Shown here piece by piece: positions 3,702 to 22,062 of a stretch of 28,491 nt of DNA. This DNA is from a virus: positions 1 through 28,491 of the IMG/VR virus record IMGVR_UViG_3300031566_000285, one strand, 5' to 3'. Within the stretch, counting starts at the first letter, position 1. The number at the start of each line of letters is the position of its first letter. The position numbers and the translations under genes are program-made. A model generated the notes under the pieces. It was not told where the DNA came from, made no database searches, and saw nothing but the letters and a program-made list of their open reading frames with translations.

Positions 3702-3989
3702 ATGAAGCGTGACGAAATACTGAAGACAGCCGGCCATTTGATAAGCAAAGATCGGCACGACACATACGGAGACAGCGCGACGTCTCACAGTCGCATAGCT
3801 GCGTTCTGGTCAGCGTATCTGGGCATAGAGCTTAGCGCGGTTGACGTGGCGGCTATGATGGTGCTGATGAAGGTCAGCAGGAGCAAGGGCGGGTCAGCCT
3901 CGCCGCATCTCGATAACTTTGTGGACATTTGCGGATACGCAGCGTTGGCCGGTGAGATGGCCGCTGAGAGCGTAAAGGATGCCGGGTAA
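3702..3989 (+). CDS. DUF6378-type small phage protein
   Basis: The protein is 95 residues. I choose the ATG at 3702 (MKRDEILKTAG) because AGGAAG sits 6 bases ahead. The longer TTG version at 3687 would put that ribosome site inside the gene. The sequence pattern (LISKDRHDTYGDSATSH, VDVAAMMVLMKVSR, HLDNFVDICGYAALAGEM) is that of a widespread phage family I know as DUF6378. It is all-helical with a conserved DN..D..GY motif. The arrangement recalls MazG-like nucleotide pyrophosphohydrolases, but I do not see the full metal-binding set and would not assign activity. Confidence 0.72.
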   Translation: MKRDEILKTAGHLISKDRHDTYGDSATSHSRIAAFWSAYLGIELSAVDVAAMMVLMKVSRSKGGSASPHLDNFVDICGYAALAGEMAAESVKDAG

Positions 3990-4127
3990 GCCAAAGCACA
4001 ACTGAGGTTGATTTCTGGGCGCAGTTGTACTTTAACTGAACGTGCGGGCTTGTCCTCCCGATAGCTCGACAACTCTGCCTCTGATTGCGTCAAGTGCAGT
4101 CAGGGGCGTTTCTTTAAGGGGAAGCCG

Positions 4128-4316
4128 ATGGCGTACCGAATAGAACTAAGGATGATCTTGAACTGTGATGATAGCGACGAGGCCGAGCTAGAGCTTGATG
4201 AGCTGGCAGATTACATAGCAAGAAGGCTGACCGATGGCTCAGACTATGAGCGTGTCGTACAGGCAATGGTTGAGGCTATCGTTGAGCTGCATGATGATAG
4301 CGGCACAGTTCACTGA
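4128..4316 (+). CDS. Small acidic hypothetical protein
   Basis: The protein is 62 residues from an ATG preceded by AAGGGGA. It is strongly acidic (CDDSDEAELELDELADY) and appears to be one or two helices. No family is recognised. The 138 bases before it contain a 7-bp inverted repeat (ACAACTG 3998-4004 / CAGTTGT 4022-4028) and no other supported feature. Confidence 0.55.
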   Translation: MAYRIELRMILNCDDSDEAELELDELADYIARRLTDGSDYERVVQAMVEAIVELHDDSGTVH

Positions 4317-4388
4317 AGGTTGGATGGCGGGTTAAGCTCTGCGCGAGACATCGCCACAGCTCAGCGCGCATCTGCTCGCGTAGCAAAC

Positions 4389-4458
4389 AAGGCAGAATGG
4401 TGTCAATATTGAGTCAACAACGTGTCAACATTGTGGCAACAATAAGGCAGAAGGGTGT
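4389..4458. repeat. Direct repeats AAGGCAGAAKGGTGT and TGTCAAYATTG
   Basis: AAGGCAGAATGGTGT (4389-4403) recurs as AAGGCAGAAGGGTGT (4444-4458), 55 bases apart with one change. Between them TGTCAATATTG (4401-4411) and TGTCAACATTG (4423-4433) are two near-identical 11-mers, 22 bases or about two helical turns apart. A looser copy, GGCAACAATA, follows at 4435. This spacing would put binding sites on one face of the helix. Confidence 0.5.
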
Positions 4459-4697: not shown

Positions 4698-4727
4698 TTG
4701 ACCGGCAGGAACGAAGGAGTACAGCCA

Positions 4728-5261
4728 ATGACAATTTCAATAGATGATCTCAACCAAACGCTCAAGTACAACCCAAAGACAGGTTCACTTACTTGGCGTA
4801 AGCGCACAAATAGTTTTCCCGCACCGATAACATCCATAAGAATTTTCAACTCAAAATTTGCAAACAAACCAGTTTACGAAGAGGCGCACAAGGGTTACCG
4901 CCGAATTAGACTCTCTAGCAAGAGTTATATGTCTCACAGGGTAGCGTGGGCTATACACCACGGCGATTGGCCTGAAGATCAGATAGACCACATAAATGGC
5001 GTCAGGTCTGACAATAGGATTAAAAATTTACGCGCCGTTGACCAAATTGGAAATTCCAGAAATACGAAAATTCCGTCAACGAATATGTCTGGCGTTATAG
5101 GAATTAATTGGGACAAGCGAGACTGGAGATGGATAGTTAGTATTGGAGTGAACAAAAAAACAGTTAGAATTGGCTCATTTAAAGATTTTGAGGAAGCAGT
5201 ATTTGCGCGCAGGTCTGCTGAAGTTAAGTATGGCTATCACCCCAACCACGGCAAACGCTGA
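4728..5261 (+). CDS. HNH endonuclease with C-terminal AP2-type DNA-binding domain
   Basis: The protein is 177 residues. The ATG at 4728 has a good ribosome site (GAAGGAG) 8 bases upstream, so I reject the TTG at 4698. The HNH_3 core is SHRVAWAIHHGDWPEDQIDH, then ING and NRIKNLRAV. It provides the first His, the central His in DHIN, and the Asn residues of a beta-beta-alpha metal finger. The tail (SGVIGINWDKRDWRWIVSIG, VRIGSFKDFEEAVFAR) is an AP2-like DNA-binding domain. This architecture is typical of free-standing homing endonucleases. Adjacency to terminase also recalls the HNH proteins that assist cos cleavage. By eye the gene is more AT-rich than its neighbours (many AAA, AAT and ATA codons), which favours a mobile homing gene. 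Confidence 0.88.
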   Translation: MTISIDDLNQTLKYNPKTGSLTWRKRTNSFPAPITSIRIFNSKFANKPVYEEAHKGYRRIRLSSKSYMSHRVAWAIHHGDWPEDQIDHINGVRSDNRIKNLRAVDQIGNSRNTKIPSTNMSGVIGINWDKRDWRWIVSIGVNKKTVRIGSFKDFEEAVFARRSAEVKYGYHPNHGKR

Positions 5262-7461: not shown

Positions 7462-8370
7462 ATGGGTATTTTTGATTTTCTTAGCGACTTATCATCTAAA
7501 CGCGCCAAGGAACTTGACCTTGGCGGGTTAAAGTCGCTTTTAGGCACGCGTAAAGCAGCTGAGGCTGGGTTGCGTGGCGATGAGATGATGAAAATTACTG
7601 GTAATGATAGTTTGCCGGGTTATTTTAATCCAGAAACGCGTGAATATGTGCCGTGGTACGTTGATTTGTTTGACGGCGGCGGATTTAATTCTGCTGGCGG
7701 TGAGAATGCTCAGGCTCAAGCTGCTTCGCCAAGACAAATTTCGCCTCAGGTTCAGCCTCAGGATTCTGCTTCTCCGCGATTATGGAATGATACTGCTCCA
7801 TCTTACGCGCATGAGCCATATAGCGGCGGTGGCATCATCTCTAACAGCCAGATGAACCAAGAAATGTATGGCTATGACTACCCGACTGAATTTCCTCTAG
7901 GCGCTGAGCCAAAATCTTTGCTAAGTTTGGAACGGCCAATCCGCCCCTACGCTGGCCGTGATAATTTTATGGAATTTTCTCAGCCGTCTGACTATGATAT
8001 TCTGCGCGTCAGGCCAGCATACCCCGCACAAGCTGAATTTCCGCTAGGCGCTGAGCCAGAATCTTTGCAAAGTTTGGAGCGGCCAATCCGCCCCTACGCT
8101 GGCCGTGATAATTTTATGGAATTTTCTCAGCCGTCTGACCGTGCCATTCAGCGCGACATGCCAGCATACCCCGCTCAGGTTTTTGGGGTTGTCGGCTCAG
8201 ATGCCAGTATGGGCAAACAGGTAAATCCAATACCCCAAGTTGACGCGGCTGAGTTCCAGAGGTTCCGGTCAAAATTTGAAAATCTCCTCAAGCTCAACCG
8301 CCAATGGGGCTTCCCTGACAGAGAGGCGGCTGTGTTTCAGGCTTTGAAGGCAGGTGGGAGCAATTACTAA
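7462..8370 (+). CDS. Putative virion-associated protein with a duplicated 49-residue unit
   Basis: The protein is 302 residues. The N-terminus (MGIFDFLSDLSSKRAKELDL) is an amphipathic helix, followed by a Gly/Gln/Pro-rich stretch with low-complexity linkers. Residues about 143-240 consist of two tandem copies of a 49-residue unit containing FPLGAEP, LERPIRPYAGRDNFMEF and SQPSD. The C-terminus (FQRFRSKFENLLKLNRQW) looks helical. Its stop overlaps the next start (TAATG). No family is recognised. Position between terminase and adaptor, and composition, suggest a minor virion or internal protein. Confidence 0.72.
   Translation: MGIFDFLSDLSSKRAKELDLGGLKSLLGTRKAAEAGLRGDEMMKITGNDSLPGYFNPETREYVPWYVDLFDGGGFNSAGGENAQAQAASPRQISPQVQPQDSASPRLWNDTAPSYAHEPYSGGGIISNSQMNQEMYGYDYPTEFPLGAEPKSLLSLERPIRPYAGRDNFMEFSQPSDYDILRVRPAYPAQAEFPLGAEPESLQSLERPIRPYAGRDNFMEFSQPSDRAIQRDMPAYPAQVFGVVGSDASMGKQVNPIPQVDAAEFQRFRSKFENLLKLNRQWGFPDREAAVFQALKAGGSNY
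7888..8181 (+). repeat. Two tandem 147-base copies inside a coding region
   Basis: Copy 1 spans 7888-8034 and copy 2 spans 8035-8181, exactly 49 codons each and in frame. A 60-base core (7933-7992 and 8080-8139) is identical even at silent positions, while the flanks differ at scattered bases. That pattern indicates a recent duplication or ongoing gene conversion. Confidence 0.93.
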
Positions 8371-9926
8371 TGGCTGGATTACTTGACTCACCAAGCCGTG
8401 ACTCATATTTTGCAAAACGCGCTGCTGATCGTGACGCATATTTTGCCAGACGTGCAGAAATGCGACGCACTGGCGAACGGGATTTTACTGGCGAAGACGC
8501 GGCCAAATTCATAGCTGAAGCCACGCCGATCATTGGTGACGCGATGGCTGCGAAAGAGGTATGGGACGAGGCTACTTCAGAAAACCCGAATTGGGCGTTG
8601 GTTGGCGCTTTAGGCGGCGCTACCTTGCTGGGCTTAATACCCGGCGCTGGCGATGCGGCTGCAAAAGCTGTTAAGGCTGGTGCGCGTGGTTTACTTGATA
8701 CGGCTAAGCGCGTTGAGGTTGACCCGAATACAATGGGTTCGCTGTTAGGTAATGTGCGGTTGAAGCCGAAGGTTAGCATTCAAGACACCATTCAATCGAA
8801 GTATCCAGACGTTTCTGTTGATTTGTTCGGCGACTCTGAAAAGGGTTATGAGTTAAGTAGAATTGTGGTGCCAAAAGGTTCGCGCGAGCAAGGCACCGGC
8901 ACAAAGGTCATGGAAGAAATTTTGTCTTTAGCTGACGCTCAAGGCGCAAGGGTTTCTTTGACGCCGGATAGTGCTTTTGGAGGCAGCAAGCCCCGATTAA
9001 AAAAGTTTTATAAGAAATTTGGATTTGTTGATAACAAGGGTTCAAATAAAGATTTCACAACGCGCAACACTATGTATCGTGACCCTGTAACACCAACTCC
9101 ATCACCAGCCCAAGAAGTCTCTGGCTTGCTGGCGTCTGGCCGTGCTGACGAAGTTACCGATGAGATGCTGGGCAAGCTGACACCGAACGACAACATGGAA
9201 TTGTTTGAATTGTACCAAAGCGGCGCAACCGGAATGGACATGCCAATGGATACTGCATCAAGGGACGCTAGGGCGGAAGTTATGTTCCCCCGAGATGACA
9301 GCTATCACGGGACAAACGCAGACATAAAAGGCTTTCAAGGCAATGTTTTTTCGTCAGAAAACCCAACACTCGCCAGCACTTATGCTAGGGGTTCGGCTGA
9401 CGCTCAAATCTATCCTCTGCGGCTTGGAAGTAAGTTAGGCGACACGGTGGTTGAGGGCGGCGGCGTAAATTGGAACCAGCTAAACCCAGATGAAATATAC
9501 AAAACTGATCCTGCTATAGCGGAATGGCTTGGATATGATGAGCTTTCAGATAGTTCAGGTAGGGTTTCTACTCGCGGAGTTGAGCGTGCAGCAATGCGTG
9601 AAGGTCGGAGCGGTGTTCAGTTTAAAGATATTAACGATATTGGGCCGGGTTTTAATTCTAACCAGTTTAAGAATTTAGGTTACACAAAAGAACAAGAGCG
9701 TGATTTGCAGCGACAGTATATGGAGGATTTATCAAAACCTTCAAATGTAGATGTTCGGTTGTCACCTAATTTAGTTCGTTCCAAATTCGCTCGATTTGAT
9801 CCACGCTTGGCTCATTTGAGAGATTTATCAGCCGGATTAACTATTATACCCGGCGGCTTACTAGTCTTACAAGAAATGCAAAAACGTGCTAATGAAGAGC
9901 AACAAAGGCAAGGACTACTACAGTAA
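8370..9926 (+). CDS. Putative injected effector: GNAT-like plus ADP-ribosyltransferase-like domains
   Basis: The protein is 518 residues. Residues 1-43 are basic and helical. Residues 45-130 carry a hydrophobic phage-internal-protein segment (ATPIIGDAMAAKEVWDEA, LGGATLLGLIPGAGDAAAK). Residues 144-238 resemble a GNAT acetyltransferase fold, with an acetyl-CoA loop-like SREQGTGTKVMEEI (171-184) and the late motif KKFYKKFGF (211-219). Residues 308-490 resemble a polyvalent ADP-ribosyltransferase domain: YHGT (H313), VFSSENPTLASTYARG (Y338), GVQFKDIND (Q417) and the closing VRSKFARFDP. H-Y-[E/Q] is the diphtheria-toxin/PARP-type order, but Q replaces the usual E, so transferase activity is uncertain. 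T4 Alt is a known virion-delivered enzyme of this broad class. Domain calls are by eye. The start overlaps the preceding stop. Confidence 0.68.
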   Translation: MAGLLDSPSRDSYFAKRAADRDAYFARRAEMRRTGERDFTGEDAAKFIAEATPIIGDAMAAKEVWDEATSENPNWALVGALGGATLLGLIPGAGDAAAKAVKAGARGLLDTAKRVEVDPNTMGSLLGNVRLKPKVSIQDTIQSKYPDVSVDLFGDSEKGYELSRIVVPKGSREQGTGTKVMEEILSLADAQGARVSLTPDSAFGGSKPRLKKFYKKFGFVDNKGSNKDFTTRNTMYRDPVTPTPSPAQEVSGLLASGRADEVTDEMLGKLTPNDNMELFELYQSGATGMDMPMDTASRDARAEVMFPRDDSYHGTNADIKGFQGNVFSSENPTLASTYARGSADAQIYPLRLGSKLGDTVVEGGGVNWNQLNPDEIYKTDPAIAEWLGYDELSDSSGRVSTRGVERAAMREGRSGVQFKDINDIGPGFNSNQFKNLGYTKEQERDLQRQYMEDLSKPSNVDVRLSPNLVRSKFARFDPRLAHLRDLSAGLTIIPGGLLVLQEMQKRANEEQQRQGLLQ

Positions 9927-10927: not shown

Positions 10928-12310
10928 ATGGCCGTTCTCAAGAACCGGGCAAAAATGTCCACCAGTACCACGGGTACTGGAACAATCACGCTTGGCTCTG
11001 CCGAGAGTGGCTACCAAACCTTTGCCGACGCTGGCGTGGCAGACGCTGACGTCGTCCGATATGTCATCGAGGATGGCGCGGCATGGGAGATCGGCACAGG
11101 AACCTACACGGCAACTGGGACGACGCTCACACGCACGGTAAGCGAAAGTAGCAATGCGGACGCCGCAATTACCTTAACTGGCTCTGCGGTGGTCTTTGTC
11201 GGGGCTGCGGCGGAGGATATATACACAGACGCAGACGTAGATACACACCTAAACACAGGCACAGCTACGACTGGCGAGGTCTTGTCATGGTCTGGAACGG
11301 ACTACGACTGGATCGCTGCGGGTGGTGCAGCACTTGAGTTGTATGCTGAGAACCCTGTCACACCCACTGCACCTTCTGCTACTGGTACAAATGCTTTCGC
11401 AATTGGAAGTGGGGCTTCAGTTTCCTCTACAGACGGAATTGCCCTTGGCAAAGACAGCAGTGCAACGGGAAGTTTTCGTTCCATAGCGATTGGTAGGCTG
11501 TCAGTATCTAGTGGCATCAGCAGCGTTGCGATAGGTTATGGCGCAACAGCAACATCGACTGAAGGAAATGCCTTTGGCCGTGATTCGCATGCCGTCACAG
11601 GCGCAGGAGCAACTGCTATTGCAAAATCCTACGCCTCTGGCGCAGACTCCTTCGCAGCAGCTATAGGCAATAGCGGCTCAAGCTACGGTGCTACTGGCGC
11701 TAACAGTATTGCTATGGGCCAAAGGGCAAAAGCAGTTGACGGTACATCTGTTGCTATTGGTCAAGATTCATCCGCTGCAAACGGTGGTTATGCGTTTGGG
11801 TTGGAGGCTGTAGCTTCTGGTACACAATCTTTTGCCGCAGGAGCCGCTACGGATGCTACAGCAGCGTATGCAACTGCTTTAGGTAGAGGTGCGCAAGCAA
11901 CCCACCAAGGCTCAACAGCGGTTGGTTATCTCGCAGCAACAACTACAACAAACCAAGTAGCGGTGGGAGCGGCGGGACACACTGTTAAGATTTCCACTCT
12001 GCACGAAACTGTAGGCACGATTACAACTGGCACTATTGACCTTGCTACTGGCAACGTCTTCGCTGATGCGCCTGCTACCAATGCGACCTATGTATTCAGT
12101 AACCCTGCCGCCTCTGGTTTAGCTAATGGCTTTACACTCAAGATAACGCCCTCTGCGACTGTGACAATCACTTGGCCTGCCTCGGTTGACTGGGCTGCTG
12201 CAACTGCACCTGACGCCCCTGCTAGCGGTGACACGAATGTCTATACGTTCTATACGACAGACGGTGGCACGACTTACTACGGCTTCCTCGCTGGCGGAGC
12301 AATGGGATGA
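10928..12310 (+). CDS. Tail fibre with YadA-like adhesin repeats
   Basis: The protein is 460 residues. Residues 1-105 (MAVLKNRAKMSTSTTGTGTI, WEIGTGTYTATGTTLTRTV) are a phage fibre N-terminal attachment domain. Residues about 155-345 contain roughly 14-residue repeats of the type AFAIGSGASVSS, GIALGKDSSATG, SIAIGRLSVSSG, SVAIGYGATATS. This is the left-handed beta-roll of YadA-type trimeric adhesin heads. The C-terminus (IDLATGNVFADAPATNATYV, WPASVDWAAATAP) is a beta-rich tip. It probably trimerises and contacts the host surface. Its stop overlaps the next start. Confidence 0.85.
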   Translation: MAVLKNRAKMSTSTTGTGTITLGSAESGYQTFADAGVADADVVRYVIEDGAAWEIGTGTYTATGTTLTRTVSESSNADAAITLTGSAVVFVGAAAEDIYTDADVDTHLNTGTATTGEVLSWSGTDYDWIAAGGAALELYAENPVTPTAPSATGTNAFAIGSGASVSSTDGIALGKDSSATGSFRSIAIGRLSVSSGISSVAIGYGATATSTEGNAFGRDSHAVTGAGATAIAKSYASGADSFAAAIGNSGSSYGATGANSIAMGQRAKAVDGTSVAIGQDSSAANGGYAFGLEAVASGTQSFAAGAATDATAAYATALGRGAQATHQGSTAVGYLAATTTTNQVAVGAAGHTVKISTLHETVGTITTGTIDLATGNVFADAPATNATYVFSNPAASGLANGFTLKITPSATVTITWPASVDWAAATAPDAPASGDTNVYTFYTTDGGTTYYGFLAGGAMG

Positions 12311-13739: not shown

Positions 13740-14390
13740 ATGCTTGGATTTAGTCCTCTAGCTTCTGCCGCGCTCGCGGATACCGGGGCTGCTTCAGAGC
13801 AGGTTATATCTACTGTAGACATTGTTACGGGCGTACCTACGGTTGCGTCCTCAACAATTTCTCAGGTCCACACACTGGCGGCTACGGGCATTACGTCTGG
13901 GGTACCTACTGTTGCATCCTCAACGGCCACGTTGGATTATGCACTAACAAGCGCCGATATCGTGGCAGGCACGCCGACTGTCGGGCCGCCTGACCTAGAC
14001 CAGAACCACGTCTTTACTGGCGTTGACATTGTAACGGGCGCGCCAACTGTTGAGGCTTCCGCTATTGTCCAAGCTAACGCGCTGGCGGCATCGGGCATTA
14101 CGTCTGGCGTGCCGACTGTTGCGGCTGTATCAATCAGTCAAGGCAGCAACATTACATCTTCGGACATTGTTGCCGGCATTCCAGTAGTCGGCTCTCCGAG
14201 CATGACGCAGGCCCACGTCATTGTGCTGAGTGATATCGTGACTGGTGTCCCGCAGGTAGGCCCGGCCAGCTTCAGGTGGACGGAGCAGTCTATTGCGGCC
14301 ACAAATTGGACAGATCAATCAACGTCGGCTACAAACTGGACAGATCAATCAACGTCGGCCACGACTTGGACCGAACAGCAGGCGGCGTAG
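13740..14390 (+). CDS. Repetitive tail protein with DIVTG-P-V units
   Basis: The protein is 216 residues. About eight copies of a roughly 24-residue unit fill residues 20-175 (for example VDIVTGVPTVASSTISQ, GITSGVPTVASSTATL, ADIVAGTPTVGPPDL). The C-terminus has four short WT(D/E)QS units. Similar D-I-x-x-G-x-P-x-V repeats occur in phage tail and fibre proteins and suggest an elongated beta solenoid or stalk. Unit number probably varies by recombination. Confidence 0.72.
   Translation: MLGFSPLASAALADTGAASEQVISTVDIVTGVPTVASSTISQVHTLAATGITSGVPTVASSTATLDYALTSADIVAGTPTVGPPDLDQNHVFTGVDIVTGAPTVEASAIVQANALAASGITSGVPTVAAVSISQGSNITSSDIVAGIPVVGSPSMTQAHVIVLSDIVTGVPQVGPASFRWTEQSIAATNWTDQSTSATNWTDQSTSATTWTEQQAA
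14278..14387 (+). repeat. Four 30-base units at the end of the repetitive tail gene
   Basis: Units of 30 bases encode WTEQSIAATN, WTDQSTSATN, WTDQSTSATT and a partial WTEQQAA. The middle units share CAGATCAATCAACGTCGGC exactly. Tandem in-frame repeats like this expand and contract by slippage or recombination. Confidence 0.85.
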
Positions 14391-19504: not shown

Positions 19505-20437
19505 ATGGGAAGCTCAGCATTAGCACCAACAATACAGCCGCAAGCTATGCCGCAAGGGCAAGCTCAGTACGCGCCAATGGCTCCACAGGGTCAGTTTAAT
19601 GTAAACCAAGCGGCGGCAGGCGGATTGCAGCAGGCCATGCAGGGTACACAACAAGCAATGCAAGCCCCAATTAACATTGGCGCTTATGCTAATCCATACG
19701 AAAATCAAGTTGTTCAGCAATCCATGCGCGATGTTGGTAGCGCTGCGCAAATGGGGCTTAATCAGCTTGATGCTCAAGCCGGTGCAGCCCAAGCCTTTGG
19801 CGGCTCACGTCACGGTATTGCGCAAGCAGAAACAATGAAAGGCTTTAACCAGCAGGCGCTGGATCAAGCCGCCCAACTTCGGTCGCAGGGCTTCAATGCA
19901 TCATTGCGAGCTGCAATGGCTGATCGTCAGGCTCGACTTGGCGCTGCGTCTCAACTTGGTTATCTAGGTCAGCAAGCGTTCGGCGTGGGTCAGACTATTC
20001 AGAGCAATCAGCGGCAGCAAGGCTTGTTACAGCAAAGCATTCAGCAAGCGCTTATTGATGCTGCAAGGCAGCAATATGCTGGCTACACAGGCGCGCCACA
20101 AACGGCGCTTCAGGCTCCGCTGGACGCGCTTGGCATTGCCCAGCAGGGAGGAGCAAGAACGACAACTGACTCAGATCAACCCGGCTTGCTCAGCTATTTG
20201 CAAACTGGCGCTAAGATTGCGGCGCTCTGCTGGGTTGCCCGCGAGGTTTACGGTAAGGACGACCCTAAGTGGCTTCAATTCCGCGAGTGGGTTATCGGCT
20301 ACTCGCCAGATTGGTTTTACAAGGCTTACAGCAAATATGGCGAAAATGTGGCAAAGGCTGTCAGCAAAATGCCAGCGCTTAAAGCTATCATTCGTCCTTA
20401 CATGGACGCCAAACGTAAGGCGATTGGATTTAAGTAA
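19505..20437 (+). CDS. Gln-rich internal virion/ejection protein
   Basis: The protein is 310 residues. A Gln/Pro/Ala-rich head (PQAMPQGQAQYAPMAPQGQF) precedes long Ala/Gln helices: ANPYENQVVQQSMRDVGSAA, AGAAQAFGGSRHGIAQAETM, LIDAARQQYAGYTGAPQ. The AFGGSR.G..QAET motif is widespread in podovirus proteins placed here. The C-terminus (CWVAREVYGKDDPKWLQFRE, YSPDWFYKAYSKYGENVAKA) is a separate helical module ending in basic residues. An ejection or trans-envelope channel role is inferred by analogy. The stop overlaps the next start (TAATG). Confidence 0.72.
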   Translation: MGSSALAPTIQPQAMPQGQAQYAPMAPQGQFNVNQAAAGGLQQAMQGTQQAMQAPINIGAYANPYENQVVQQSMRDVGSAAQMGLNQLDAQAGAAQAFGGSRHGIAQAETMKGFNQQALDQAAQLRSQGFNASLRAAMADRQARLGAASQLGYLGQQAFGVGQTIQSNQRQQGLLQQSIQQALIDAARQQYAGYTGAPQTALQAPLDALGIAQQGGARTTTDSDQPGLLSYLQTGAKIAALCWVAREVYGKDDPKWLQFREWVIGYSPDWFYKAYSKYGENVAKAVSKMPALKAIIRPYMDAKRKAIGFK

Positions 20438-22062
20438 TGGCAAAAGGTTTTATCCCTCTCGAAAAGCAAATGGACTTCCTCTGGAGTGAACTTCAGGGAA
20501 AGGAAAAAGCTGGCTTTGGCAAGTTTCTTTCCGCCGGGGTTAATACGCCGGAAGACTATGCGACGCTGTGGGATAAAACCTATGAGCGCTCTGGCGGCGC
20601 TGGCGATGCAAAGGCTAGAGATTACGCAGGCAGCGTATTTGCGGCCATGTCCGACGGCACTTCAAACCAAGAGTTAATTTCTCCAAACGCCAAGTTTACC
20701 TACAACTATCTAACGCAAAAGGGCATGACGCCACAGCAAGCCGCCGGCGTCACTGGCCGCTTGATGGCTGAAAGCTACGAGGAAATGAACCCAGACGCCC
20801 GCAACACTATGGCAGGCGGTCAAGGCACATACGGCGTAGCGCAGTGGCGTGGCAGCCGGATGGACGACTTGGCCAACTTTGCCGGTGTTGATGTGGGCGA
20901 TATTACATCACTGCCGGCGACTACACCCGGCGGCGGATTACTTACAACAAGCCAAGGAACCTCACCCATGATTGATCCAACAAAAGCTCCTTTGATGGGC
21001 AGCGAGGCAATGTATAAATTCGACCCGCAGGCATCGCAGCAGGCAGCTCAGCAAGCTCAGCGTCCACAGCAGGGCGGGCTTGGCGGTTTGCTCTCAACGC
21101 TGAAAGACAAGGCAATGGCCGTTGACCCGCAGACCGGGATGACAGGTTTTGAGCGCTTTGCGTCTGCACTTGATCCACTAATTATGGAAGAGTTTCGCGG
21201 TGGTGAAGGCATTAGAGAGCGTGGCGCGCAACGGGTTGCTGCTGGAAACAAGAACAGAACCATTGAGATGTTGCGAGCTAGAGGTCGCGCAGACTTGGCA
21301 GACATGGTTGAGCGTGGCATGATTTCACCGACTGAGGCGGCTGGGCAGTTGCTGGCGGTGCCGAAAGAAAAAGGCAGAACCGTTGACGCAGCAACATTGC
21401 GCAAAATGTTCCCCGGCGCTCAAATTGAAGATGGGCTTTACAACTTAAAGCCTGACGGAACAGCGAACAAAGTTGGCGGCGGCGGCGTTAATGTAACCGT
21501 CGGCGGCGAAGGCACGGAAGCGTTTGAGAAAGAGTTTGGCCAACTTGACGCAAGAAAGTTAGCGTCTATTGATAATGTCGGCTCCTCTGCATCAAGAAGT
21601 TTAATGCAGATCGACCGGCTTGAAACGCTTTTAAACAATGTACCAACCGGCATGAGCGCAAACATCAAGCAGCTTGCTGGTAACTTCGGCATCCAGACAG
21701 AGGGTCTAGGCGATATTCAAGCTGCGACAGCTATAATTAACGCACTTGTCCCGGCACAACGGCCAGTCGGTTCTGGGCCAATGTCTGATGCTGACTTGGA
21801 TTTGTTTAAACAATCTTTGCCTCGCATAATCAACTCGCCCGGCGGCAACCAGATGATTATCGACACAATGCGCGGGCTTGCGCAATATGACGCGATGGGT
21901 TCTGAAATTGTGCAAAGATTCCGCGCTAAAGAAATATCAAAAGTTGACGCGTTTAAGCTCTTAAATAGCCGACCAGACCCGTTTGCAAGTTTTAAGGCTT
22001 CAATGGGGCCAGTTGAAACTGACATGAGTACAGAAGACGCGCTAAAAATTCTAAACCAATAA
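20437..22062 (+). CDS. Virion lysozyme/ejection protein with an apparently permuted Phage_lysozyme2 domain
   Basis: The protein is 541 residues. Residues 83-150 match the first half of the Phage_lysozyme2 family: KFTYNYLTQKGMTPQQAAG, GRLMAESYEEMNPDARN with probable catalytic Glu112, and TYGVAQWRGSRMDDLANFAG. The usual second half, tQ.dFLw.EL...yErsg..ka...A, appears instead before it at residues 10-70 (KQMDFLWSELQGKEKAGFGK, YERSGGAGDAKARDYAGSVF). The halves are swapped relative to the order I know. A Gln linker (about 200-215) leads to a helical C-terminus (NALVPAQRPVGSGPMSDADL, DLFKQSLPRIINSPGGN) common in podovirus internal proteins. The role is local opening of peptidoglycan during DNA entry. 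Confidence 0.78.
   Translation: MAKGFIPLEKQMDFLWSELQGKEKAGFGKFLSAGVNTPEDYATLWDKTYERSGGAGDAKARDYAGSVFAAMSDGTSNQELISPNAKFTYNYLTQKGMTPQQAAGVTGRLMAESYEEMNPDARNTMAGGQGTYGVAQWRGSRMDDLANFAGVDVGDITSLPATTPGGGLLTTSQGTSPMIDPTKAPLMGSEAMYKFDPQASQQAAQQAQRPQQGGLGGLLSTLKDKAMAVDPQTGMTGFERFASALDPLIMEEFRGGEGIRERGAQRVAAGNKNRTIEMLRARGRADLADMVERGMISPTEAAGQLLAVPKEKGRTVDAATLRKMFPGAQIEDGLYNLKPDGTANKVGGGGVNVTVGGEGTEAFEKEFGQLDARKLASIDNVGSSASRSLMQIDRLETLLNNVPTGMSANIKQLAGNFGIQTEGLGDIQAATAIINALVPAQRPVGSGPMSDADLDLFKQSLPRIINSPGGNQMIIDTMRGLAQYDAMGSEIVQRFRAKEISKVDAFKLLNSRPDPFASFKASMGPVETDMSTEDALKILNQ

Follow-up and report, generated by a model that had tools for sequence, protein, structure and literature searches.

We analysed a window of 28,491 nucleotides, positions 1 to 28,491 of IMG/VR virus record IMGVR_UViG_3300031566_000285. 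It contains a gene for a virion protein whose N-terminal domain we read, with a probability of roughly 0.83, as a natural circular permutant of Phage_lysozyme2 (PF18013) that forms the muramidase-like part of an ejected protein. The canonical N-terminal catalytic half (A) and C-terminal half (B) are encoded in the order B-A. The relevant features are as follows.

20437..22062, plus strand: gene for a virion (putative ejection) protein with the permuted lysozyme at its N-terminus; open reading frame of 541 aa.
20458..20646, plus strand: B, the C-terminal half of Phage_lysozyme2; residues 8-70, matching profile positions 75-139.
20647..20685, plus strand: new B-to-A connector, residues 71-83; the gap between the two profile matches.
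20686..20886, plus strand: A, the N-terminal catalytic half; residues 84-150, matching profile positions 2-66.
20770..20772, plus strand: codon of E112, the presumed catalytic glutamate by alignment to E45 of phi29 gp13.
20887..20931, plus strand: what is probably left of the canonical A-to-B linker, residues 151-165 (VDVGDITSLPATTPG), by its likeness by eye to VDPADVDAQL in a canonical ortholog (L166).
21490..22059, plus strand: C-terminal domain that defines the ortholog family, from ortholog searches.

When the whole protein was compared with Pfam-A, PF18013 was the sole family found, in two stretches (78.7 bits against a gathering score of 28.2). Residues 77-160 alone matched profile positions 2-66 (60.3 bits, E 3e-16), with one other model at a sub-threshold level only. 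Residues 1-75 alone matched PF18013 only, at positions 75-139 (27.3 bits, E 4.5e-6); the B half of this protein is thus weaker than A and, by itself, lies below the gathering score. Seven longer virus records had a front piece that exceeded that score alone (29.4-32.5 bits), and each of them gave exactly one match per profile half. Profile positions 2-139 are covered once by the two pieces, with only the linker (67-74) as a gap and no leftover of other copies. Since positions 75-139 are followed by 2-66, the halves are complementary and in reverse order. Canonical orthologs gave a single continuous match (for example, 3-133). The original prediction had proposed exactly this swap, including a match of the front segment to the family's C-terminal half, and it is confirmed by the separate searches; the boundaries given there (10-70 and 83-150) are correct to within a few residues. 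Both profile halves are present, the presumed catalytic glutamate lies in the first profile half and the canonical A-then-B order is absent. The domain is a PF18013 homologue, a permuted variant outside the canonical topology. In common with the N-terminal domain of phi29 gp13 (3csr, 3csq) it has the two profile halves, the segment of the catalytic Glu and the GxAQW segment; it differs in having the halves reversed and the new termini in the A-B linker.

We also rotated the domain string at every position and scored each rotation with a canonical-only profile built from 22 canonical proteins, none of them permuted. As encoded, the domain matched in two pieces (58.1 bits, and 32.7 bits for the B half). 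The best rotation, starting at residue 79-84 and continuing with 1-78, gave one collinear match of 97.7 bits. Rotated domains of other permuted lineages likewise gave a single collinear match (L236, 98.3; L185, 92.6; L068, 88.7; L105, 74.8 bits), while the best unrotated piece across the scanned permuted proteins reached 49-58 bits. In pairwise comparison with the canonical-order protein of phage Twort, identity was 48% over 48 aa for the front piece and 46% over 56 aa for the catalytic piece, with z of 13.6 and 20.5, respectively, over shuffled sequences. The profile match, the Twort z-score and the rotation scan rule out that the front piece is similar by chance.

The Twort matches also bear on whether A and B came from two different lysozyme donors and were joined in reverse order. 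The best canonical relative does differ between the halves, being a L. brevis plasmid protein for A and Twort for B; pieces of 50-70 aa are, however, poor at resolving donors, and Twort ranks near the top for A as well as for B. We consider a chimera of this kind very improbable.

The swapped order is not produced by the choice of frame or start codon. The ATG of the open reading frame shares one base with the TAA of the preceding gene (TAATG), and two codons 5' of it the same frame holds a stop, so no protein sequence can stand ahead of residue 1. This upholds the earlier view that the order is no frame or start error, an explanation ruled out by the upstream stop together with a Met start that is common to the relatives.

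The permuted order was present in about 45 IMG/VR contigs belonging to three lineages, which are 44-56% identical to one another. The permuted contigs were mostly 76-93% identical, with L105 and L106 at 55%. The third lineage (L236 and L238) was found with a DNA pattern in which the B motif had to precede the A motif, and L236 is 50% identical to the window protein. As such pattern scans span only some codon choices, further permuted lineages may exist. In another locus of the third lineage (L234, 13715-14062) the frame ends within the catalytic half, through sequencing error or decay. Among 210 loci, B-A order was seen in 121 ORF hits, a number that includes many contigs fetched more than once (about 45 contigs), and A-B order in 30; no A-B-A or B-A-B intermediates occurred among these loci. 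An assembly artefact is ruled out by the number of separate contigs. In a survey of 823 bacterial genomes, none of the 144 PF18013 matches (in 112 genomes) was permuted, and the two that were split (G734 and G806) had the canonical order. Two scans of genome contigs revealed no permuted member, and an extended search from narrow alignments returned the same contigs and nothing further.

Both halves are under purifying selection. E112 and S113 were invariant in all 41 aligned rows (26 permuted and 15 canonical), E112 aligning to E45 of phi29 gp13, which we take to be the catalytic residue of that enzyme. In both halves dN was far below dS (Nei-Gojobori); between the window and the permuted L066 the values were dN 0.031 and dS 1.606 for B, and dN 0.038 and dS 0.940 for A, several of the dS values being close to saturation.

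AlphaFold2 modelling of residues 1-165 with permuted relatives only gave a pLDDT of 76.9 and a pTM of 0.80; the stretch 114-132 was poorly predicted. Once the input also held catalytic-half fragments from canonical homologs, the two scores rose to 90.0 and 0.89; the added fragments carry no information on how the halves meet, and half-length canonical B fragments were excluded from the input, their MAFFT alignment being unreliable. In both models the two segments packed together, as the original prediction had expected, so that residues 8-70 and 84-150 are predicted to form one domain. Taken with the profile matches, that domain is probably a single lysozyme fold. Foldseek returned nothing at E<0.001 for either model, and the first model had no lysozyme match by Foldseek (PDB, BFVD) or VIA-align. 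For the second model, VIA-align paired residues 78-156 with 11-88 of phi29 gp13 (3csq; 28% identity, rmsd 3.6) at Z 2.9, a score that is not significant by itself and no better than that of unrelated rows; the pairing is in register with the E112/E45 sequence alignment. Weak pairings with MltE and MltF were also obtained. Sequential structure search against phi29 gp13 recovered the catalytic half only. Foldseek and VIA-align apparently follow chain order, and a permuted fold should score poorly with them; the missing whole-domain match is expected for a permuted chain and is no evidence of a new fold, but with it the lysozyme fold of the whole domain stays at the level of a sequence-based prediction.

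These results weigh on a further reading, raised at the outset as the alternative to permutation, that a tandem duplication left behind parts of two separate lysozyme copies, with no single fold and a structural role only. Duplication is the usual route to permutation, and the front piece is weaker than the catalytic one. Each piece is nevertheless complete and in single copy, E112 is invariant, dN is low relative to dS in both halves, the prediction gives one packed domain, and the order persists over three lineages at 44-56% identity. We judge decayed remnants to be very improbable; tandem duplication stands as the likely origin of the arrangement, with loss of the first A and the last B. 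A pairing between subunits, in which the A half of each chain is completed by the B half of its neighbour in an ejection-protein oligomer, is more improbable again, for the monomer model with both halves in one chain is already confident (pTM 0.89), although only a monomer was predicted here and neighbouring chains may be close, since SU10 ejection proteins have been proposed to form a channel (PMC9509320). Circular permutation, put forward earlier as the simplest reading, is supported by the single-copy complementary pieces, their conservation, the three lineages and the one predicted domain.

Such a permutant most likely arose by an in-frame tandem duplication of the lysozyme region; from the resulting A-B-A-B, the outer A and the outer B would have been lost to leave B-A; the old termini would then be joined through the short connector, and the new termini would lie within the old A-B linker. 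By eye, the start of the protein appears to fall inside that linker (GFIPLEKQ, resembling NLPPLEKQ in L190), and a second trace follows the A half (GVDVGDITSL, resembling GVDPADVDAQL in L166). Linker traces at both breakpoints fit with duplication of A-B and subsequent loss of the outer halves. The common breakpoints point, tentatively, to a single origin of the permutation.

The C-terminal domain search recovered 70 distinct related ORFs. Among these orthologs, canonical PF18013 occupies the N-terminal region in Rhizobium phage RHph_I3_18 and in L141-L143, L165, L166, L168 and L171. The same place holds an SLT transglycosylase in L134 and L161, a glucosaminidase in L065 and Peptidase_M15 in L170; the N-terminal region of the remaining orthologs has no recognised domain. 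In L159 the fused arrangement is split: a canonical lysozyme has its own gene (3729-4427), immediately ahead of the one for the C-terminal domain. The repeated swapping of muralytic domains argues that the N-terminus of this protein family would serve to cut peptidoglycan. The RHph_I3_18 ortholog (QIG75013), annotated as 'putative tail protein', is 46% identical to the window protein in the C-terminal domain and is followed by a gene in the same order; its PF18013 is canonical (one match, 12-136) and starts about 125 residues inside the protein.

The permuted lysozyme itself appears to be mobile. Mapping the permuted state onto the C-terminal-domain tree takes three changes, and well-supported branches force two or more of these. 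Outside the lysozyme, permuted L105 is closest, among the proteins compared, to canonical L168 (52% over 147 aa). The C-termini of permuted L005, L093 and L100 are very divergent, and permuted L066 and L185 have a C-terminal part of another family, phrog_13634. Between L066 (3998-5542) and the window gene (20437-22062), the permuted lysozyme is 93% identical and the C-terminal family differs (phrog_13634 in L066), which is recombination inside the gene. From the three tree changes and the divergent or replaced C-termini, the permuted lysozyme seems to move as a module.

The open reading frame lies between an upstream gene matching phrog_4287 ('DNA ejection protein') and a downstream gene of phrog_5880, whose function is unknown, and it is located upstream of an SU10-type portal gene. 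The window encodes both an SU10-type portal and a major capsid protein; the gene lies in the structural block of this SU10-like phage beside a putative ejection-protein gene, as would be expected of an ejection protein of SU10-like podoviruses. Elsewhere in the window, a putative fibre protein (10928-12310) matches the YadA_head repeat six times (PF05658, E 1.1e-15), the repeat being familiar chiefly from adhesins of bacteria, and the product of 13740-14390 is built of repeats of about 25 residues (DIVTGVPTVASSTISQ...) without a Pfam match. Inside the structural block, 8370-9926 shows a weak GNAT acetyltransferase match and a match to phrog_10691 (a profile of 3925 positions). The product of 4698-5261 is a free-standing HNH endonuclease (HNH_3, E 6.2e-15) that also matches AP2 weakly.

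Virions of phage SU10 contain gp20-24, which are gone once the genome has been released. One of them, gp20, a Kuravirus ejection protein, has transglycosylase activity and has been proposed to break down the cell wall (PMC9509320). The window protein resembles gp20 in its proposed role and in the SU10-type portal and major capsid protein of the window, a likeness of role and gene setting; gp20 is described as a transglycosylase (PMC9509320), whereas the window protein carries a putative lysozyme. By this analogy the window protein most likely does the job of gp20, using a lysozyme. Together, B and A would form a single N-terminal muramidase-like domain of the virion protein, and this protein would be expelled with the DNA and open the peptidoglycan for genome entry, as proposed for gp20. 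We infer muralytic activity, packaging in the head and ejection for the window protein. It is conceivable, if unlikely, that the permutation is adaptive: having B first might alter unfolding and refolding during threading through the portal and tail channel, or might allow the halves of neighbouring ejected chains to pair, such that the lysozyme would be active only after periplasmic delivery.

Circular permutants of other proteins include natural ones, such as concanavalin A and the swaposins, and engineered ones, such as T4 lysozyme, all with the same kind of topological change. Our literature search, which was not exhaustive, did not turn up any natural circular permutant described for the PF18013 family. 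In profile-based annotation the domain shows up as a partial lysozyme, and the permutation goes unnoticed. Natural enzyme permutants with canonical-order orthologs in the same protein family are uncommon, and this known enzyme in a new permuted form has unusually good matched canonical orthologs. With such pairs (permuted L105 and canonical L168, with flanks 52% identical; the window protein and RHph_I3_18), the effects of permutation are directly measurable, on folding, stability and passage through the phage tail. In this phage protein family, an enzyme fold appears to have been rewired in the course of evolution and yet retained.
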